From the NCBI GenBank assembly GCA_951799445.1, contig OX637296.1, positions 17,546,001 to 17,610,000 on the forward strand: 64,000 nt of DNA. Direction: 5' to 3'. A program made the position numbers and the translations under genes. Below are positions 12,521 through 55,634 of this stretch, in pieces. Within the stretch, counting starts at the first letter, position 1; the number at the start of each line of letters is the position of its first letter. The notes under the pieces are model-generated. The model saw only the letters and a program-made list of their open reading frames with translations, was not told the origin of the DNA and ran no database searches. This DNA is from Pseudisothecium myosuroides (taxonomy: Eukaryota; Streptophyta; Bryopsida; Hypnales; Lembophyllaceae).

Positions 12521-15500
12521 ATGGTGGACATGGGGGTGAACAGAAGGAATGCAGTGAGTCGGTATTTGCTGCTAGTGGCGGTGCTGGGACTAGTTGCAGA
12601 GCTTTCCCATTCTTGCGTGGCACAGAGTCTCAACGATGCCTCGGCTTACTTGGATAACGTTGAGAGTGAAGTGATGCGAGTTGCTGCAAAAGCCAGTGAA
12701 AATTTTGTCAACACTTGCGGTATAATTCTCGTACTTTGAAATGTATCTTTTGTGTTGTGAATCATGTGCATCCGTGTAGGAGCAGGTTTAGGTCAGTGTT
12801 TTGGGTGTGGGAATACTGCCTACAACTAAGGATCAGTGAGTGACCGTAAAATTTGAAGGATGATAGCTTGAACCAAAATTTCATTAAAATGGCGGTATTC
12901 CACAAACTTGACACTTTTACATTTAGACCGCGCGGTCTGAAATCTATATCAATCCTAGACTTCACTAGGGCTAAAGATGGAAATGAATGAAAAAATGGTG
13001 TATGCAATACTGCCATTTTAACAAAGTTTCCCATCTTACTGGTTGTACTGGCACTTTTTATAGTTTGTATCGCCTTAAATTTAACTTTAGTGGTTTAGGA
13101 CATTGCTTTTCAAGCATTTGTGTCAAGTGTTACCCCTTAGTACCCAAGCTGAAAATACAAACTATCTGGAAGCTGATAGTCAATTATAGTAGCCTCCAAA
13201 CTCTCTCTCTATCATTCAAAAATGTCGAACCTACTTTCACCTTTCTATTTAACAGACATTTTAATACCTTCGTTAAAGATTCCTGAACAGTTATTGTTCA
13301 ACTTCTGTAGATATGGAAGCCACTCTTTGACCAGGAAGGGGTTAAATCAATTTCTATTGAATGATGCATTTTGTTACCTTCCTTGAAGCTTCACGAAGAT
13401 ATCTAACTCCAATATAGAAGCCGCCTTTTGGAGGACTTTGGGGTTAAATCAGACATCAGTGGGATGCTCATTGCAAACCCATTTGAAACGTTTTCAGTGT
13501 TTTTTTGAACTTGCTATTAACTGGTTACGTAACAATCAACGATTAAAATATCATTGTGACAATTGCAGATTTGGTGGAATCGTGTGGAGGGGCATGCTCA
13601 CGACAGTCGTGCCAACCTTTGGAAGGGGACATCCAATTGTTGACGTGCAAGAACGTTGCCCTAAATCCTACGTGCAGTGATGCAAATGGCAACATGGGAT
13701 GTTCACAGCTGCGAGTCATGCTTTCTAGGAGTTTTGTCAGGTCTTGACTCCTGTTGCCAACACTCTTTAATGTTCACTCCACGTGCTTCAGTGGCTGCTA
13801 CCACATCCACATTATAGGAGATGAAAATTAATCATTAGGAAGTTCAAGGAAGGTAACAAAATAAATCAACAGAGAGAAGAATTCAAGCCCTACATTTGGA
13901 ACAATTGAAGTATGTCTTGAAAGTTTCTTTTTTTTATAGATTTAGCTTGGGCAATTAGGTGTTAACCAAGTCTCTTGGGTTCACTAATTGAACAACTACA
14001 CATTGGTGGCTGCTAACTCTTTACATCGCAATTGAGGAACGAAAATTTCGTTAAAATGGTGGTATTCCACAAAATTGGCACTTTTACATTTAGACCTTTG
14101 ACCGTGCTGTCTGAAATCTATACCAGTCGTAGACTTTAGAGCTAAAGAAGGAAATGACTGGAAAAATGGCATATGGAATACCGCCACTTCAACCAAATTT
14201 TCCATGGAGGCTATTCGCACAAGATCGATAGTACGACTGGTTTAGGTTTTTAGTTTGATGGCCTGACTTGTAGTCTTGTTGTTGCAGGCTTCCTACGACA
14301 CCTGATATTAATGTGACAAGTGCAGACAACTACGCAATTTGTAGTCAAAGGATGCTGGATCCCCTGTTTTTGAACATTTCCAAGGTCCACAACAACGCAA
14401 TCAATCTCACTTCATGGTTCTACCTTGGATCAGTGGAGGGGGTGCAACGTTCCTTTCCTGGTCGAGTAAGCTTTGAACTTGAATGTGTTCACCCAAGCAT
14501 TTGTGTGTTATGTTTCCCGACTACAGGGTTTTAGGGCTACTTCTAAATTTTTAGAGTTATTAGAAAATGTCCTGCTCATGGACGTGGAAATTAGAAGAAC
14601 TCATTTGCACTTACATTAAGATATCATTGTCATATTGAATGTCAATTTTGTTATATGGACACAATTCAGAGTGCCCAAACTGTGACACTCAATTGCTCAA
14701 AGGTCTGGAAACTCGGACTGGTATAGATGTAGGTCACAATGCGCCCGCCGTGTAAAGCGCCAATGTTATGAATTTCTGTCAATATTATGAAATTGATGCT
14801 TATCGGTTCGATTGTGATTTTAAACAACTTCAATATGCATCATGATGCAGGATGTATCACCAACAAAATGTACTTTTGAACCAAGGAAGCGTCCCTGGTG
14901 AGTCCACTATACCTCTTGATTTCTTTGTAAAGAAACAAGGGACTCCTCAATTGTTCTTGTTGTTCCTCTTGTGTGGTAAACTACAGATGGTCCAAACCCA
15001 GGCCATCTTCATAATGACGTTGTGTTGAATTCTACGGTAATTTGAGTTTGTGAAATCAGAGAACCTGTAAATTAATGTAAATGGCCTTCCAGGTATATGG
15101 GTGCAACAGCTGTGCGGAAGGACCTAATCATTCTGCTAGATGGTGGAAACTCAATGGGCGATGGATTACCTGGTGACATCTTTATTAATCCAAAAGATTT
15201 CACCAAGTTCACTGCCTCTGTCAACATGATCAAGGAGCTTCTAGACACCCTAAACTACGGTGATCGTGTGTCCATCGTCCTTTACTCAAGTTCCACCTCA
15301 GCCACTTTAGTGATGAATGTAAGCACACTGCAGAGCTGATATATTTTTGCACGCGGATTATTATTTTTTCTTTCCTGCACTGTCATTTTAAGTAGAACAA
15401 GAAGCACATGGGCTGTTACAAAAGCGACACTGATCCAATTGCAACTAAATGAGCAGACTGCTTTCATTGTAGAACACCAATCTTGGACTGTCCAAGATCT

Positions 15501-18500
15501 CTTGTTGCGGGAGTGCTTTGATAGTAAAAGATACTGGGCAGTTCAAGATTGGCATCGTACAATGATACATTTGCAAGAATTAGGTTGGATTGATTTAGTG
15601 TGGCTTTTGCAACCTTGCCAGTAAGAGTTACGAGATGATTATTAAAGGGTGAATTACTGGCTCCGGAATGAAAGAGAGGAGGTCATGAATTGACAAAATT
15701 TACTTCCACAGTGAATGTGAAGTTGGTTGAGTTGGTTGCTTAGAAAGCAAGCCAATGGTACAATGTGCTACCAACGGGAAGGGTATTAAGCAGAGAGTGC
15801 AGACACTAACAAGACCTTGCCCACCTTTAACTTCACCCTCAGTTTAATCTCCACAATCAATTGAAACATTTCTACTTCAAAATTTGTAGCCAGTTGTTGT
15901 AGATGACATGATTTTCACTGGGAGTGCAGATGATATCCACAGGAAACTCCACCGACATTCAACCTTTGAAAACGGCACTTGATGCATTATTGGTGGATAC
16001 CAATCCAGGGACCTCCAATTTGCTGGCAGGGATTCAGAAGGCCAATGCCACTTTTTTATCCCCAGCGGACCCGGCCGTGCTCAAAATCATGGTGCTGATT
16101 ACAGACGGCCAGTTTGCAGACAACAGTACCCTGCCTCCCTTACTCCCATTCCTCGCCAGCTTTCGCTCCCAACAGGTCAGTGAACTCCACCTTTGATTGC
16201 CCTTCATTTTCCATCTTCAACCGCTTTTTTTCTCACAACTGTAGCTACTTCGGTTATCGCCTCTATTCTCACTCTAATCAAAAACATAAATTTAATCCTA
16301 CAGTTTCAATAAATGATCGTTTGTTTATTGATGCATCCATTTTGAATTTTTTTTTCATCAGTTTACAATACCGAAACCAACGGTTCTCTCCAACACAACA
16401 TTAGTAACCCATCAATGCAGATGAGAATATGAGATGTCTTGGTGAACAATATAGTTGAAATATATAGATGTAGCTTATTGGTTTCTGTTTGCTCAAGCTT
16501 GAGAGTTCGACGACTGTAGATTTTAACCTACCTCTAGCCATTTTCTACGAGGAACGTTTTGACTTCCTTAATAATGTTATTTCAATCATTTATGCACTGA
16601 TGCATTTTCATAAATTGATAATATAATCATCGATTCACACCACACTAACCATCTATCCCTACACCAGGTCCTCACCCTGCTCTATAGTTTCGACCGGACA
16701 GACACCGCAAAGACTTCCTTGTCCCAATTCGCGTGCACCGTGAACGGGACTTACGAGCGCATCCTAAAAACCGTGATGAACCCACTGTGGACGATGCGAT
16801 CCTACTTCGGGATCATCGCGTTCTGGCGCCTACAGGCGGTGAACTTCAAGCCGTACTGGAGCAAGCCGTACGTGGACAGCGGGAGCTTGTCGGAGGTTAT
16901 TACGGTGGCTTACCCCGTGTTTGCGCCGGACAATTACACTCTTGTTGGGGTGGTGGGCTCGGATGTGATCATGTCGGAGCTGGGATCTATTGCGAACACT
17001 GACTTCTCGGCGGCGCTGAGCGGAAGGGCGAATGATCAGTCCTACCCTGTCACGTTTGTGCCGCTGCCTTGTAATGTAAGTGCTCAGATCAGTCTTGCCG
17101 TCAAGTTCTGCAGTCGGAATTCATCACTGGTCTTTCTGTCTGTTTCTGCAGTCGGATTCCATCTGTGGTCTTTCCTTCTAGTTCTGCAGTCGGGTTCCAT
17201 TTCTGGTCTTTCCGTCTGTTTCTGCAGTCGAATTCCATCTCTGACCGGTTGGTTGAATTGCCACTCTTCTTTCATATCTTGATGCAGGCATGTGCCGCTG
17301 CTGTTCAATTGCCTTGCGAAATGGGCTACTATAAAGTTGTGCATGAGCTAGTCCATAATACATTATAAACATTGTGACAAGTAAAAGTTACTCCTCGATA
17401 TAAAACACAATGTCAATTCTAGTCGCATTAAAATTGGCAGGGTTTACAGTAGACATTGCCTTAAATGGTGCTAAAGTTGCCACGGTTGCCACAATCTCAG
17501 TTTATGGGTCCTATGATTCCTTTAAGAGGTCCCCTCATTTTACTTTTGGTTTGCGAAACTTGGACAGTCCTGAGTTTACAAAGGCTTGGAGGAAGAGAGA
17601 CTGAGACCCGCGAGAAGAGAGAGTGAGAGAGGCTTTGTAGGACACTGAGAAGAGCAATGGTTTGTCGTCATTTTCTTTTATCGTGCGCTTCAAATTTAAC
17701 GGAGGGACATTCTTGAGGACAGGTTTACTTTAGGAATTGCCTTAAATGGCGTTACAATGGCGTTACAGTTTAACTCAACCAGATTTTCTAGATACCTCTG
17801 GGGGAGCTCTTTTCTACTAGTGAAGGTGGAGGGATCTGATGACCATGCGTGATCCGAAACGTAAATCTATACCGGGCCTAGTTTTTAGAGCTTTGGGTAT
17901 ACGGATGTCACAATTTGTGGCGCCCAGAATTGAACGAAATTGACAGTACCTGTGGATGATGCGCAGGTGCAATTATCAACGAACAACACATGTCCCACCA
18001 TATCAGCCCCAGTGAACCCCCTCTGCGCCGCCAACGACACCAGCAACCTTTCCTTCGCGGACCGCGTGTGCGACTGTCCTCCCCAGTGCAAAGCTCCCCA
18101 GGAGAAGCGTTCAGTCTCCTCCGCTGTGATCGGGGCAGCAGCTGGAGGAGGCGCGCTCGCCCTGCTAATCGTGTCGGTTTCCCTGGTCTATTGCTGCTGG
18201 TGTCGGTCCCGAACCCGGAAGATCGAAAACCAAGGCTCCGTGTATGCGCCCAGTATTATTATTAGCCCCCAAAAGGACTCCATCTCCAAGCCTGCCAGCA
18301 TGTCAATCAAGGGGATGTGCTTTGGACAGAGCTCGGAGGATTCTGGGGACGTCGCCATGCCGAACTCGACTTACACATCCTCGTCTTCTACGCGGTATGA
18401 GCTTCTGAGCACTTGTGTATGTTTTGCCTTGGAAACTTTATTTTCTTACCGGAATTGTAAAAGTAGAGCCTTGTTAATATGAGAAGTAGTAGCACGGCGA

Positions 18501-20225
18501 GCCACAGGAGTAGCGAGGGATTTTATTTGCATAACGAAGCTGTACTTCCACGTTACCGGACTACGTAACCTGAATGGTGGGATCGTGTTCAATCATCTTA
18601 ATCAAGGGTCTGAAATGAAGAACATCATAGCACTAGAAAAGGACAATGTTATGAGAAATAACCATGCTCTCCGTTGAGGTTTTGAATACAACAATACCTT
18701 GCACCAACCCAAGTAGCTAGCTGCACCAATCAATACTAGCCGGTGCTTGTAATGCCTGTTAGCTTCACATTTCTGTGCATTTATTATACGCCACAATTAA
18801 TTATCCTAAAGATCATGAGTAGTATGAGCTTAGAATCTTCATATTGTGAGGATATCTTCAATTTTTGAAAACATTTCAACCTACAGTATAATTGGACTCC
18901 ACTGATTCCTCCCTTAAAAGGAATTGCACAGAATAGTGTAGCTAGAAGTTAACAAATCTCTTATATGCTTGAACTTGCAAGGTAATCAATGGCAAAATAG
19001 AGTTTTCAGTCAGCAAATTGCCTTTAGGTGGTGGTTGCAGACAGGGTTAAGCATTGATATTATTAGCAATCTTTAAAAAGCAACCAAATAAAACTGTCCA
19101 GGATTTGGTGCAACACGATTTGAAATTTCACAATTCTGATAGTCTGACGTGATCTACATGAGCAGAAGGCAAAAAAGCAACAAAGCTCCCGCTTGGCCTA
19201 CGGGCAGCAAGTCCCTCAGCCGCGACGTCGTCTCTTTCACCATGTTCGAGCTGGAGTTCGCCACCCAAAACTGGTCCACCGCCTCTCTCCTCGGCAGGGG
19301 AGCCTGCGGCAGCGTTTACAAAGGCACACTCCTCGGCATCCCCCGCGCCATCAAAAAGCCCCACGACGGCGTCGAAGTCGCCAACTCCACTTTCGACAAA
19401 GAGCTCGACCTCCTCTCAAAACTCAACCACAAGTGCCTGGTCCGCCTCATCGGCTACTGCGTCGACGAGCACGTCCTCGTCTTCGAGTACATGTCCAACG
19501 GTACTTTAGAAGATTGCCTCCACAAGCACCGCCTCCAGCGCTCCCTCACCTGGGAGGAGCGTCTCCGCATCGCCGCGGGTGCCGCAAAAGGCCTCGAGTA
19601 TCTCCACGAGTACGCCACCACGATGATCATCCACGGCGATGTCAAACCAGCCAACATCTTGCTGGACGAGAAGCTTGAGGCTCACATCTCAGATTTCGGA
19701 TTATCGCTCTCCACAGCGGATGCAGACGCTTCCATGATGTGGGCTTCTAAAATGGGTGGGACGCCCGGGTACTTCGACCCCGAGTACGCTTCCTTGGGGA
19801 GCTTGACACCCAAGAGCGATGTGTACAGCTTCGGGATTGTGCTGCTGGAGCTTATGAGTGGGAGGAAAGTGGTCCAGGAGAATCAGAACATTTCCACGTG
19901 GGCAGTGGAGAATTATAAGCGCCATGGAGTCGGGGCGATGTTGGATCCGGAGATGGAGATGCCGCTGGAGTTGGATTGTTTTCATACGGTGATTGAATTG
20001 GCGTTGGAGTGTGTGCATAAGGAGCATCAGTTCAGGCCGAAGATGAAAGATGTGTCGGCGGTGTTGAGCGGCGCGGCGTCGGCGTGGCAGACGTTTGAGA
20101 GGGGGGAGGATGGGAATGGGGAGTGGAGGCCGAGTCGCGGGCAGACGCGGCGGCAGTCGAGAGGGCCGGAAGAAATTGAAGAAGATGGAGAATATGAAAG
20201 CACTGTACAACAATTGCTATTGTGA
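12521..20225 (+). CDS. VWA/Cache-domain receptor-like protein kinase (987 aa, nine exons)
   Basis: Predicted single-pass plasma-membrane receptor kinase. Exons: 12521-12719, 13569-13740, 14288-14465, 14851-14897, 15093-15318, 15930-16175, 16668-17075, 17967-18394, 19166-20225. All borders are GT..AG, phases agree, and they total 2964 nt. Residues 1-35 look like a signal peptide. About 36-200 is a cysteine-rich, first Cache-like part ending RKRPWY (195-200). The VWA domain is about 208-355, with a modified MIDAS (D215-G-G217-N-S219, T302, D333). A second Cache-like part is at about 400-490 (Y424, D455). The membrane helix is about 545-568. The kinase is about 675-950: glycine loop 678-683, K698, E714, HGD 791-793, DFG 811-813, GYFDPEY. 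Ectodomain order matches animal alpha2delta/CACHD1. The start ATG follows an in-frame stop. Main doubt: the last exon could be a separate cytoplasmic kinase starting at 19158. The kinase exon is GC-rich and intronless. Confidence 0.78.
12875..13034. mobile_element. Hairpin MITE, copy B, in intron 1 of the receptor kinase
   Basis: Ends read 'atttcattaaaatggcggt' and, inverted, 'actgccattttaacaaa'. It is shorter than copy A (about 160 bp) and nearest to copy C, so B and C form a sub-family within the same gene. Confidence 0.7.
14038..14204. mobile_element. Hairpin MITE, copy C, in intron 2 of the receptor kinase
   Basis: Ends read 'atttcgttaaaatggtggt' and, inverted, 'ataccgccacttcaacc'. The interior matches copy B ('ttttacatttagacc', 'tctgaaatctata'). 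Confidence 0.7.
17105..17255 (+). repeat. Four-unit minisatellite in intron 7, each unit acceptor-like
   Basis: Four tandem units of about 37-38 bp, each with 'ttctgcagtcg' followed by 'ggtctttc' and a pyrimidine run. Each unit looks like a polypyrimidine tract plus CAG, that is, a decoy 3' splice site. The frame of exon 7 stays open through the array to a stop at 17282, so retention of this intron would give a secreted, kinase-less product. Confidence 0.75.
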
Positions 20226-36550: not shown

Positions 36551-36796
36551 TAAAGCTTTTTTGAGCACTTGAATGTGACAATTTCAGCTCAAATTTTGAG
36601 TAGCAGTCTAAAAATTTGGAAATCCTAGAGATGCTTAATATCTTGCGAAAATCTGACAAGCGGATCGGAACCTCCGATCATTGCTGGTACAAGTATATAA
36701 ACCTTTGAGCACTTGGATGAGACAATTTAGCTCAATTTCGAGTAGCAGTAAAAATTTGAAATGCTAGAGATGCGTAATACCTTGCGAAAATCCGGC
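36551..36796. repeat. Tandem duplication reaching into the 3' end of the RING gene
   Basis: Copies at about 36551-36656 and 36695-36796 share 'gagcacttg', 'gagtagcagt', 'gctagagatgcgtaat' (or gctt) and 'cttgcgaaaatc'. The second copy contains the last codons and stop of the RING-H2 ORF (stop at 36764-36766), so part of the gene's 3' end has been copied downstream. Confidence 0.7.
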
Positions 36797-37495
36797 TGAG
36801 GCATCAGCGGCGCCGGTACTTTCACCTCGAATCACGACCTCTACGACATCAAACTCCGCTGCTCTTCGCGTTCCGCCATCACCTTCCGCATGTTGATCCA
36901 CTGTACGCGCATCCTCCGCTTCCACATTCTTCAGAGAATCGCGACATAGCGGGCAAGTGGAGTGCGATTTGAACCACTCCTCGATACACTCCGAGTGAAA
37001 CGCGTGTGCGCAGTGCGGCAGCAGTCTCAGGCTGTCAGACTCTTCAAACAACGCTAAACAAACAGCGCAATCCTCCGCGTTTTTCCCCTTCTGCACAAAC
37101 TCTGAGAATTTCACCAGCGGCAAGGCGCTCACCACTTCGGGATCGAGTCCAACGTCCCGAGGTTTCGTAGAACGGTTTGGGCGACGTCGTGGAATCTCTG
37201 GGAATTCTGAGGGTTCCCCTGGACGCACAATATAGCGTTTGAAGATACCCGTGGCGAAGCCCACCAGGAAGAAGCAGACAATCACGGAGGACACCGCGAC
37301 TGCTAATGTTGGATTGAAGGTGCTATCGTGCCGCACTGGAGGACTGGTCGTGGCTCGCGTCACGTCGGGCGCGGGCGCCATAGCCCACGTCTCATTCGAA
37401 GCTAATAGGAATCTCCTCGCCATCGTGCACAAATTGGTCTGGGAAGCTTTAGTTGTAAGATGTGACCTGTTGTTGGAGAATTCTCCTGAATTCAA
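36764..37495 (-). CDS. ATL-type RING-H2 E3 ubiquitin ligase (243 aa)
   Basis: Likely a membrane-anchored E3 ligase that passes ubiquitin from an E2 to unknown targets. Residues 63-85 form one hydrophobic helix (AVAVSSVIVCFFLVGFATG), followed by a basic stretch, a GLD motif (116-118), and a complete RING-H2 domain: C143, C146, C162, H164, H167, C170, C181, C184, with the W174 typical of E2 contact. This order and the lack of introns fit the plant ATL family. An alternative start at M25 (MARRFLL) would shorten the luminal part; the sequence does not decide. The last five codons lie in a duplicated stretch, and a GT donor-like site (CAAG|GTATTA) sits there, so a small 3' intron is possible but not needed. 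The family often responds to pathogen elicitors; nothing here shows that for this gene. Confidence 0.85.
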   Translation of the reverse strand: MNSGEFSNNRSHLTTKASQTNLCTMARRFLLASNETWAMAPAPDVTRATTSPPVRHDSTFNPTLAVAVSSVIVCFFLVGFATGIFKRYIVRPGEPSEFPEIPRRRPNRSTKPRDVGLDPEVVSALPLVKFSEFVQKGKNAEDCAVCLALFEESDSLRLLPHCAHAFHSECIEEWFKSHSTCPLCRDSLKNVEAEDARTVDQHAEGDGGTRRAAEFDVVEVVIRGESTGAADASAGFSQGITHL

Positions 37496-38962
37496 CTGGA
37501 ATCACGAAGCTGTTCTAGTCGGTCTCGCTCGTAGCCTGAGATTTTGAAGCAGGGCTTGCGCAACCAGAGAGGCGAATACTCGTGTGAGGATCGGTGAAAA
37601 CGGTATAAGTCTTGTGTGTCGTAAGATGGACGCATCATACCTGCTAGAGTCTCTTCACTTTTCGATTACACCAGACCTTGTCCAGTGTCAATAATCTGCA
37701 ATTCAGTGCAGTGACATGAGATTGAAAAACAGGAGCTACAGTTCCTGTGGGTGCAGATTTCTAGATATCGATCGAGAGTTGAGCCACAATTGATCGACGA
37801 CAAGGTACGATTCTTCCCTTGCAGAGAAACACAATCAAAACTTCACGGTCGCTTCACTGCTAACTTACGAAGCCTCAACGCGTCTCTCGAGATTCCAAGC
37901 AAACAATCGAATTAAGTACGTATCCGAGTATGTATGGCCCCGGCTTCTGTATCTCACTCAAAAGTAGAGTCTCCGCTTTCACGGTCGTTTCACTGCTAGC
38001 TTCACGGTTGTACGAAACCCTAAACTTGCGAAGCTGCAAGTCACAACTAGTCTCTCTATCTTCCAAGCAAAAAATTGAATAAACTCGAGTATGTACGGCC
38101 CCAGTTCCAAAATCTCACTCAAAAATCTCACTCAAAAATTTGATTCTCTTTTTATCCAAAAATAAACTAAAAAATTAAAAATCTGATTCTCTTTCACAAC
38201 TAGTGGCGACAATAACTAACAACAACTAGACTCTCAAGCAGTCAAGCTAACATGCAAAGATTCGACTGAGCATGTACCCAACTGTATAAACGACCCAGCT
38301 CCTAAATCTCGATCCAAATTTAATTCTCCTTCATGGTTGCAAGCTGCGAACTCAGCAACGCACACTTGGAGTTCGAGATTGAGGAATTTGAAAAACTGAG
38401 TCGTTGCAGCGGGGCTTATATATTGACCAGTTCAGTTCAGCAGGTTCCCTCACCTCAAATTCGACGATGGTGCTGACGATGTGCAAATCTTGAAACTTTA
38501 CGAGTGCTGAGTTGTTGACTGATGGATGGTTAATGGGGTTTGGCTTTTGCACCGGCGGGTAAGCATGCGCCGCGGCCAGTTGGATTATGCTCATCACTGC
38601 CAAATCACCCAAATGCATGCCCAATGGGTGTCAAGTGGTGGATAGGGAAATGGATACTGCTGACGATGGACGACAGGACGAGTACCGAACGACGGCAGTG
38701 AAGTTCCTCACAGTGAGTCTCGCACTGTTCATTCAGTTTGTGCCGTCGCCGTCACTCCACGACAGTGAGTGAGTGGTCGGCCGGCTGCTTCGGAAGGAAC
38801 AGTGTTCATCTCTTCACCACAGTAGGGGGCAGCAGGGTCATTGCATGGGTTTGAAGAAAACGCAGGCTTGGCAGTGCTTGCCGGAGAGCCACCAAGTGGA
38901 AAGGCCCCAACTTTAGGGTTTTCTACAAAATAGGAGATTCCAGGAGACTAAATGGGCCCGGT
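37496..38962. other. Upstream region of the RING gene with degenerate tandem repeats
   Basis: Two to three imperfect repeats of about 140 bp (around 37840-37960, 37970-38110 and 38215-38330) share 'cacggtcg.ttcactgcta', 'ttccaagcaaa' and 'gagtatgta.ggcccc'. Located upstream of the minus-strand RING gene, so they may lie in its promoter. Small ORFs here have no support. Confidence 0.5.
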
Positions 38963-53113: not shown

Positions 53114-55634
53114 ATGGAAGAGCAACAATTTCTGGAAAGCATGCAAGATTTTCTTCAATCATGGGCACCAGAGTTGCAAGGATACAAAATCACAGCAGAT
53201 GGTGCATGGCAGGAGAGTGAAGGTGAGGAAGGGAGCAAAATTGCATCACAGGCTACAGCAGGATTCCAGCGATGGAGGCTAGGCGGAGGAGCCATGGACG
53301 TGCGAGGTGGGGGTGGAGACGGAGCAGCAACCGGGGTCCATGCAGGCGCTGTTCACGCAAGCCCCGGCGCACTGCAGGAGGCGGCTGCCAGCGCCAACCT
53401 CGATGGGCGCAGCAGCTGGCCCAACCTGGGTGGCCACTGCAGCAGCCCTTGCCTGGGCGGGCACCGCAACAGCCCCAACTTGGGTGGGCGCCGCAGCAGC
53501 CCCGGCCTGGGCGGGGTCAACAGCAGCCCCGACCTTGGTGGGCATAGGAGCAGCCCCGACCTCGGCGGGCGTTGTAGCAGCCCCGACCCGATGGAGGTGG
53601 CGGCAGGTGGATGCCCGCCTGCAAGTCAAGCCTCCGACGGCGCCGACGGTGGGAGCTGCGACAGGCCTTGCCGGAGCACAAGAGCAAGGTCCGGCCAAGG
53701 CGGGGAGGCTTCATTGGTGCCACTGCTGCGATCGAATGAGACAACAGAGAATGGAGGTAAGTCTACAAAGCCTCCTCTACCGCAATGAGGTCGCAAGCGC
53801 ACAGGAACTTGGAGTGACGAACAACTAGCATCTGCAATAGCAGCAGTGGAAGGAGGTAATAATGTGGCCACTGCAAGTAGAGCTTTTGGTATTCCTGCTT
53901 CATCCCTGCAAGATCACATTTATGGAAGAACAACACAAAGAAAGAAAGGTAGAGAAGGTGTGGTCACTAAGGAGGAAGAACGTGCACTAGTTCAGTGGAT
54001 GCTACAAATGCAAGATCTAGCACATCCTATATCAGTCATAGAGCTCAAGAGGAAGGTGACTGAGATAACACAGGAGAGATGGACACCCTTCACAGATGGC
54101 ATTCCAGGACGGGGTTGGATGAAGTGGTTCCGCAATCGCCACCCTGAACTAACATTAAGAGCTCCACAGGCATTAGAAAAATTACGGGCAAGGGGTTTGA
54201 ATCCGGCAAGCGTGGCTTCCTTCTACGAGAACCTAAAGAAAGCCTATGACAAGGAACGGTATCCCCCATCTAACATCTGGAACACAGATGAGTCTGGAGC
54301 TCAAGCAGGCAAGAGTGGAGGAGCCACTCTAGTTTTTGCCCGCCGTGGTAGCAGATCTGTCCATTCAACCACACCAAACAACAAGGAGCATTTGACAGTT
54401 CTCACATGTGTAAACGCAGCAGGGGAGTGCATCCCGAACTATTACATATTCAAAGGGAAATGAAAAGTCAGGAACTTTGTTATTAACTGTGAACCTTCAG
54501 CTTGCATGGCAATGCAACACAATGGCTGGATGACATCTTTCCTATTTCTAGCCTGGATCACTCAGACGTTGCCAAAGAAAGGTTTGGACTATCATAAGAA
54601 AATAGGCACCTATTAGTTTTCAATGGTCATGCATCACATGTAACTCTAGAAGTGGTGAAGAAGGCTGCAGAAGACGGTGTAGACATTATAACCCTACCTA
54701 GTTATACAAGCGACAGGTTACAGCCACTAGACGTCAGTATTTTCAAGCCCTTCAAAACTGAATTTCGAAAACGCAGAGATCAATGGACAATAAGAAACAA
54801 AGGGAAGAGTGTGAGGAAGGAGGAACTGGCAGAATGGGTGTCCCTGGGCTTAAGGAAAGCATTGACAGCAGCAAAGATTCAGGAAGGATTTGCTACCTGT
54901 GGAATATGGCCACTTGATCCCTCCGCCATGGACGCCTACATGGGGCCAAGCGCTTGCTATAAAGAACCAGCTGAGGATGATGAAGACGATGAGGATGCAG
55001 AAGAAGTAGATGGACATGAAGCAAGAGGTGCTAGCACCTCTCAAACCCAAGCAGACCAGCACAGTACTTTGTGCCCACCGATGATGATTCCACCCAAGGT
55101 TCAAAAGATAGCAGCAGCTCAGAGGCAGAGGAACCAGAGACATCAACAACAACAAAACTTTTCCCTCTACCACATCTACAACGTCCATCACGTCGGCACT
55201 GCAGCTCCACAGAGCCCCTTCTGGATTACTCAAAATCTATCTTGGTCACCTCCAACGAATACATCACAGCCATGGAAGCTAAAGCTGCAAAAAAAGAAGC
55301 TGTTGCAGTGGAACGAGAGGAACGGAAGAGGCAGGTGGAAGCAAAAAAAGTACAGAAGGCAGAAGAGAAGGAACGCAAGGAGGCTGAAAAGCTCATGAAG
55401 CAGATACAAGCGCATAGAAGAAAGCTGATCAAGAAGAGGAGAAGGCGCGCAAAGCTGCGGAGCGGGCGACCAAGAAACAAAATTTGGCGCAGAGCAAGGG
55501 CCGCGGCAGAGGACGAAGACTCGGCGCCAACGACCTCGACGAGTCTACCTGCCCCGGCCAGGTTCGGCCCCAAGACCAGGGCGGGCTCCCTGGCCTTGGT
55601 GGGGTCGCCGGCTAGGGCGGACTCCCCCGCCTAG
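53114..55634 (+). pseudogene. Pogo-like DDE transposase, broken by stops and frameshifts
   Basis: Segment 53114-53788 begins MEEQQFLESM and runs in frame through GC-rich repeats to a TGA at 53786-53788. The same frame resumes GRKRTGTWSDEQLASAIAAV, then a psq-type helix-turn-helix (ATASRAFGIPASSLQDHI), a CENPB-like middle (GRGWMKWFRNRHPEL), and the DDE part from NTDESG. A TGA at 54461-54463 and a frameshift near 54590-54605 follow. Then FNGHASH (the aspartate usual here is Asn) and LQPLDVSIFKPF with the third aspartate. A further frame change near 55.08 kb leads to a lysine/glutamate-rich coiled tail ending near 55634. The copy cannot encode an active enzyme. Confidence 0.8.
53413..53592 (+). 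repeat. GC-rich 27-bp tandem repeat inside the transposase ORF
   Basis: About six to seven units of 27 bp ('gcagccccgacctgggtggg' core), which in the transposase frame read SSPDLGGHR/SSPNLGGRR. Because the unit is a multiple of three, the frame is kept. Several overlapping long ORFs in other frames are by-products. Confidence 0.8.

Follow-up and report, generated by a model that had tools for sequence, protein, structure and literature searches.

Can a plant receptor kinase carry an extracellular module of the kind known from animal alpha2delta proteins, and, if so, what might it sense? This question is raised by a gene located at positions 12521..20225 (+) of a 64,000-nucleotide stretch of DNA from the moss Pseudisothecium myosuroides (contig OX637296.1, positions 17,546,001 to 17,610,000; the whole stretch analyzed, hereafter the window). 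The product of this gene is a candidate amino-acid receptor, in which an alpha2delta-like sensor with its pocket residues kept is carried by a plant receptor kinase. The small-molecule sensing proposed in the initial annotation can be sharpened, judging from sequence, to a universal amino-acid pocket.

Gene structure and the ectodomain-kinase junction

Resplicing of the gene from the DNA bore out the claim that its nine exons join without phase conflict: all eight introns are of the GT-AG type, the frame remains intact and a stop codon closes exon 9, giving a product of 987 amino acids. Its parts are, in order, a signal peptide, a Cys-rich N-terminal part, an RKRPWY motif, a VWA domain, a second Cache half, a Cys-rich stalk, a single membrane helix, a juxtamembrane part and a kinase; the signal peptide and the one membrane helix between ectodomain and kinase were recognized by hydropathy and position.

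Exon 1 (12521..12719, residues 1-67; all exons on the + strand) encodes the signal peptide, placed by eye at approximately residues 1-33 with a hydropathy peak from residue 16, and the start of the Cache N-terminal helix. Exon 2 (13569..13740, residues 67-124) encodes a Cys-rich part of the Cache module, with Cys among the invariant columns of alignment A1. According to splicing and profile alignment, exon 3 (14288..14465, residues 124-183) carries an ICSQR motif and W167, which pairs with W205 of alpha2delta-1, while exon 4 (14851..14897, residues 184-199) carries F192 and R197 (codon 14890-14892), the latter pairing with R241; the intron after exon 4 splits the W199 codon. The VWA domain (residues 209-382, 15121..16745), located by Pfam and alignments, lies inside the Cache module and spans exon 5 (15093..15318), exon 6 (15930..16175), both defined by splicing, and part of exon 7, with D215, G217, S219, S303 and D333 forming a site that resembles a metal-ion-dependent adhesion site (MIDAS). 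Exon 7 (16668..17075, residues 357-492) encodes the VWA end and the second Cache half, in which Y424 and D426 (16869-16877) and D455 (16962-16964) pair with Y450, D452 and D491 in the profile alignment. Exon 8 (17967..18394, residues 493-635), again defined by splicing, encodes the Cys-rich stalk (CDCPPQC), the membrane helix (approximately residues 543-570, 18117..18200, with the top hydropathy window from residue 545) and the juxtamembrane part, and exon 9 (19166..20225, residues 635-987), identified by splicing and Pfam, the entire kinase domain with its non-RD catalytic loop HGD (19632-19640).

The introns hold two further features. Intron 7 contains a 38-base tandem repeat in four copies (17092-17243), and introns 1 and 2 share, by eye, a similar stretch (12870-13030 / 14040-14200; about ttaaaatgg.ggtattccacaaa...cacttttacatttagacc) that is perhaps a short mobile element.

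The kinase is confined to one exon, behind an intron (intron 8) of 771 bases, and the layout could in principle be an artefact of two adjoining genes wrongly merged over this intron. A protein search returned nine proteins at E up to 0.001 (7,993 candidates scored), eight of which (P0001-P0007 and P0009) combine ectodomain and kinase in a single frame; P0008 has no kinase, the kinase is incomplete in P0003 and P0009, and P0002 lacks the part corresponding to the first exon. P0001, a single open frame with this layout, can be aligned across every one of the eight predicted junctions, 18394/19166 among them; indels of one residue occur close to the fifth and the sixth, and P0001 has junction 8/9 at the matching place. 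Furthermore, the open frames of P0001, P0005 and P0007 comprise 928-1015 codons, and their longest contigs span 4.2-4.8 kb, as against the 7.7 kb occupied by the window gene and its introns, so that these contigs probably derive from RNA. The fusion artefact, contradicted by these single-frame relatives, is hardly credible and was dismissed, and it is very nearly certain that the predicted exons and domain order are sound.

An alpha2delta-like ectodomain with a single Cache module

In Pfam searches the window protein matches VWA (E 3e-10) and a protein kinase (E 1.5e-42), and its Cache part is matched by MCP-like_PDC_1 alone (E 6.7e-5, 23.7 of 27 bits, under the cut-off). The profile check suggested in the initial annotation is upheld as regards VWA next to a kinase, and fails as regards dCache_1 and VWA_N: neither these nor VGCC_alpha2 gave a match in the window protein at E up to 1, and VWA_N was matched in P0026, a protein of type III, at E 9e-4, under the cut-off. 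Neither of the two outcomes that had been named beforehand as fatal to the annotation, a separate kinase or a lack of any VWA or Cache profile match, was seen, as profile matches exist and the relatives are single frames.

Among PDB sequences, the window protein aligns with alpha2delta-1 over residues 166-442 (E 1.8e-4) and with the chemoreceptor PctA over residues 421-471 (E 1.3e-5). A seven-row family profile matches alpha2delta-1 at E 1.9e-20, with CACHD1 as the second-best profile and fold match, and the predicted structure of a relative has a fold like that of alpha2delta and CACHD1. Over the matched stretch the VWA domain is inserted in the Cache module, collinear with alpha2delta/CACHD1. 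Two double Cache domains were not found: approximately 88 Cys-rich residues lie between D455 and the membrane helix, and the P0008 model has no further Cache sheet there. The alpha2delta/CACHD1 likeness claimed for a Cache/VWA/Cache ectodomain is consequently supported by the profile and by the relative's predicted structure, while its two separate Cache modules reduce to one module split by the VWA domain; no counterpart was seen of the additional Cache modules present in alpha2delta and CACHD1.

Alpha2delta proteins (CACNA2D1-4) share with it the Cache module split by VWA, the RPWY(x)7KD sequence at the junction, the pocket residues R241, W243, Y450, D452 and D491 and the fold, but are cut between alpha2 and delta, carry a glycosylphosphatidylinositol (GPI) anchor and contain two double Cache domains (PMC9901441) and have no kinase, whereas the moss protein has a MIDAS of the form DxGxS and Q, H or E at the A215 position. 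CACHD1 is likewise a single-pass membrane protein with Cache and VWA domains and a disrupted MIDAS (PMC6231325, PMC7615972), yet it has four Cache modules, a Frizzled-binding domain, an unstructured tail and no kinase (PMC7615972). Bacterial dCache_1AA receptors of the PctA type share the pocket pattern aromatic-R-W-Y ... Y ... D (PMC9901441, PMC10104139), in addition to the PctA sequence match, but have no VWA insert, a double Cache and other output domains.

The homology to alpha2delta also suggests a role as an accessory ion-channel subunit, in keeping with the resemblance in fold and sequence. Such a role is highly improbable: a membrane helix and kinase replace the GPI anchor, the MIDAS reads DxGxS as opposed to the intact, required MIDAS of alpha2delta-1 and -2 (PMC9901441), and Cav channels are said in the available text of PMC11085791 to be absent from land plants, a general statement rather than one drawn from this genome. 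The channel-subunit candidate was dismissed on this last ground.

Pocket residues and the VWA metal site

The VWA domain of alpha2delta-1 divides the amino-acid motif into a first part with R and aromatics and a second part with Y and D, and R241 and D491 are important for the action of gabapentin (PMC9901441). Profile alignment places the alpha2delta-1 pocket residues opposite W167, R197, W199, Y200, Y424, D426 and D455 of the moss protein. The family, divided by ectodomain into three types, was compared in a table of 32 rows (type I, to which the window protein belongs, 10; type II, 14; type III, 4; protist-like, 2; plus others including the alpha2delta protein P0032). Equivalents of W205, R241, W243, Y450, D452 and D491 are present in all ten type I rows, and that of Y244 in nine, P0009 having F; the dCache_1AA series of R, W and Y followed by Y and D is thus complete in type I save for this one substitution. 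The two protist-like rows retain all pocket residues. As a control for general conservation, 481 positions (residues 60-540) were examined, of which 115 are invariant in type I, 50 when the protist-like rows are added and 24 when alpha2delta P0032 is added; six pocket positions are in every set.

The MIDAS is less well kept. All ten type I rows have G at the first serine (the S261 position), giving DxGxS rather than an intact DxSxS; D215 is present in all ten, S219 is S or T in nine (F in P0003), D333 is kept in nine (Y in P0005) and S303, the counterpart of T331, in nine (A in P0007). The second serine is lost in all 14 type II rows. This bears on the alternative that the VWA domain is the business end of the receptor, binding a protein, peptide, wall polymer or co-receptor via the VWA/Cache surface, with the small-molecule pocket being structural. 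The ectodomain surface of CACHD1 binds receptors, namely Frizzled and LRP6 (PMC7615972), and four of the five MIDAS positions could still bind metal in most type I rows; however, none of the six pocket positions varies among the type I, protist-like and alpha2delta rows, whereas the MIDAS-like site does, and we consider this alternative rather unlikely.

A number of observations weigh against an amino-acid pocket of the alpha2delta-1 type. Pfam dCache_1 (PF02743) is among the models without a match, and the structure model is that of a relative 46% identical to the window protein, not of the window protein itself, from an alignment that held one alpha2delta row. The first aromatic (Y236) is F rather than Y in all ten type I rows; it is Y in all four type III rows and in 10 of the 13 type II rows with a letter, and the first motif position of dCache_1AA is termed aromatic in PMC10104139. 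The pocket is not kept throughout the wider family, the arginine being absent from four of 14 type II rows and the last aspartate from two of the four type III rows. Type I rows have Q, H or E at the A215 position (A217 in rabbit numbering, by our count) and S, A or N in place of Y217; therefore, type I specificity must differ from that of alpha2delta-1. Finally, with no membrane-proximal Cache, signal transfer cannot exactly copy that of alpha2delta or of bacterial dCache receptors.

In type II, the pocket arginine is R in nine rows, Q in four (P0019, P0020, P0023 and P0024) and a gap in one, and the D491 equivalent is present in 14/14; in type III, the arginine is present in 4/4 and the D491 equivalent in 2/4. 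Of the 13 type II rows with a letter at the A215 position, seven have W, or eight if the second-choice junction of locus L034 (EGVWRSYPGR) is right, the pocket tables and both trees having used the first-choice junction, with S at this position. In alpha2delta-3/-4 the A215 position is occupied by Phe, which is said to keep bulky ligands out (PMC9901441). On these residues, type I is predicted to prefer a ligand with a polar end and type II a small ligand.

A pocket altered by Q, H or E at the A215 position and by loss of Y217 might also accept a small molecule other than a proteinogenic amino acid, such as 1-aminocyclopropane-1-carboxylic acid (ACC), gamma-aminobutyric acid (GABA), an amine or another small metabolite. 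The evolution of dCache_1 pockets from amino-acid to amine binding has been reported (PMC10104139), as has signalling by ACC, independent of ethylene, in Arabidopsis ovules (PMC7429864). The carboxylate-bonding arginine, not conserved in amine receptors according to the available text of PMC10104139, is nevertheless present in 10/10 type I rows, and a ligand of this kind appears distinctly unlikely.

A sub-branch of type II, comprising P0019, P0020, P0023 and P0024, has Q for the pocket arginine, lacks the W205-type tryptophan and has HGD, not HRD, in its kinase; in these four proteins sensor and kinase appear to have changed together.

One ectodomain, two kinase lineages

The window kinase possesses the lysine, glutamate, HGD, DFG and DPEY motifs, with HGD making it non-RD, and HGD is present in 7/7 type I kinases of the kinase-tree set. 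At E up to 1e-30 it has matches to 59 PDB sequences, with FERONIA first, SYMRK and CERK1 also prominent and IRAK4 after them, which places it in the RLK/Pelle family; this ranking and the Pfam match confirm the Pelle-type kinase of the initial annotation. Among the kinases compared, the nearest other kinase of its own genome is L022 at 45%, followed by L024 and L023 at 39-40%. L022 carries weak RCC1-like and TNFR-like matches, under the cut-off, and is taken by us to be CRINKLY4-like, the next kinases presumably being CrRLK1L-like, both names being assigned by eye. The CRINKLY4 family has RCC1-like repeats and a TNFR-like ectodomain, neither of which was found by Pfam in the window protein, whose ectodomain is Cache-VWA. 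CRINKLY4-type and CrRLK1L kinases resemble the window gene in having the nearest kinase domains among those compared, but differ in their unrelated ectodomains and in HRD versus HGD.

Used as a query against the 388-Mb genome, the ectodomain yielded 32 exon matches, gene counts from which are lower bounds; they comprise one type I gene, that of the window, and diverged clusters. Type II genes are located in tandem at 12.40-12.64 Mb of C4 (L033, L038, L039), at 5.46 Mb (5.456) of C6 (L034) and at 3.25 Mb of C2 (L035), and type III clusters at 22.51-22.55 Mb of C4 (L036, L041, L042) and 15.94-15.95 Mb (15.937-15.950) of C8 (L037, L040). In the seven loci examined first, a kinase follows the ectodomain in all five of type II (L033, L034, L035, L038, L039), and none was matched in the two of type III (L036, L037), with no kinase match downstream in 9.6 kb (L036/L041) or in the 6.8 kb up to the next copy (L037/L040). 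The L034 model has 13 exons and 986 residues, with one poorly scoring acceptor (before GYMAPE), and the L033 model, at 865 residues, stops short of the gene's end; the kinase is split by introns in both. The type III models (590 and 594 residues) end past the membrane helix with a short tail, and both have lost the D491-position aspartate. Type II receptor kinases thus share the window gene's ectodomain, with R in 9/13 rows with a letter and D491 in 14/14, but have an intron-split kinase (two models) of another lineage and W at A215 in 7/13.

In a kinase tree of 32 rows, type I kinases group with L022-L026 and type II kinases with L027-L032, split at 87/86, although long branches lead to seven of the reference kinases and the tree program flags the split between I and II as a meeting point of long branches. 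An approximately unbiased (AU) test, with 11 reference kinases, all from the same genome, and groups defined by ectodomain, rejected a tree in which type I and II kinases were forced together (p-AU 0.0043). In bit scores against the window kinase, all 14 type II kinases (78-160) fall below all 11 other own-genome kinases (162-182), the gap being narrow (best type II 160 versus weakest reference 162). Because tree, AU test and bit scores all part type I from type II, one ectodomain appears to have been coupled to two kinase lineages, via two gains or a swap.

The ectodomain tree (31 rows) recovers types I, II and III each as one clade with starred support, joins I and III at 90/85 and places the window protein next to P0002 of Ceratodon; in this tree the animal row and two rows of type III sit on long branches, and the grouping of the protist-like with the animal rows may be spurious. 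Further protein searches, a method that needs shared 5-residue words and scores approximately 8,000 candidates, returned 13 proteins in the second round (7,999 candidates) and 19 in the third (7,994). Organism names are attached to 14 of the 32 distinct proteins, namely Ceratodon purpureus (6), Physcomitrium patens (4), Sphagnum (2) and the copepod Lepeophtheirus salmonis (2); the named plant matches are mosses in 12/12, and absence from non-moss plants is suggested. P0017, named in nr 'L-type lectin-domain containing receptor kinase IX.1-like', is misnamed, having no Pfam lectin match at E up to 0.01. The metagenome proteins P0029 and P0030 have Cache and VWA, a DxSxS MIDAS start and the amino-acid motif residues, and no kinase; we judge them protist-like, and they possibly give a picture of the ancestral receptor. 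A prokaryote genome scan with alignment A1 gave 19 pattern matches, none confirmed, from two short patterns that leave room for bacterial relatives. The proposed fusion in a plant lineage accordingly holds for mosses, and not as a one-off layout, since the moss family has three forms and kinases of two lineages.

Other features of the window

A scan of the window with Rfam gave no match above cut-offs, and NCBIfam returned solely models far under theirs. Open frames at 53789-55395 (+) with Tc5 DNA-binding and DDE_1 domains represent a transposase, which we take to be of the pogo/Tigger kind, and an open frame at 36767-37501 (-) has a RING finger and a hydrophobic N-terminal stretch and is presumably ATL-like.

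Proposed mechanism and significance

The protein would sit in the moss plasma membrane as a receptor kinase, its extracellular Cache pocket, of the amino-acid-sensor type of bacterial chemoreceptors and alpha2delta-1, binding an amino acid or amino-acid-like molecule. The VWA domain inside the pocket-bearing module may form the outer part and a partner-binding site, and the ligand signal would travel via the Cys-rich stalk and single helix to the non-RD RLK/Pelle kinase with its complete motifs, activation probably occurring through the assembly of receptors or co-receptors. As a whole, this mechanism stands at about an even chance of being correct.

In a literature search of open-licence full texts, no receptor kinase with an alpha2delta-like Cache-VWA ectodomain was found, in agreement with the initial annotation, to which no described receptor kinase class with this layout was known; the parts are known, and their combination was not found there. 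Plant Cache domains are confined to histidine kinases in the available text of PMC4822843, and the terms 'VWA', 'von Willebrand' and 'Cache' are absent from the main text, as available, of PMC10834447 and likewise of PMC3310802. A fuller reading, to which we give somewhat less than an even chance, is that this class of moss receptor kinases senses extracellular free amino acids with the gabapentin pocket of alpha2delta-1, and that an ancient eukaryotic Cache-VWA receptor, kinase-free in the protist-like proteins and type III, was coupled twice to RLK/Pelle kinases.

This family offers a case in which kinases of two lineages bear a single ectodomain, and it suggests that the ectodomain of alpha2delta predates its calcium-channel role. 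Mosses bear an animal-like Cache-VWA ectodomain on receptor kinases whose ligand class is directly testable, with relatives in the model mosses Physcomitrium and Ceratodon. If the amino-acid reading is true, mosses would provide the first plant receptor kinase for amino acids, and their receptors would be possible targets of gabapentin-like compounds.

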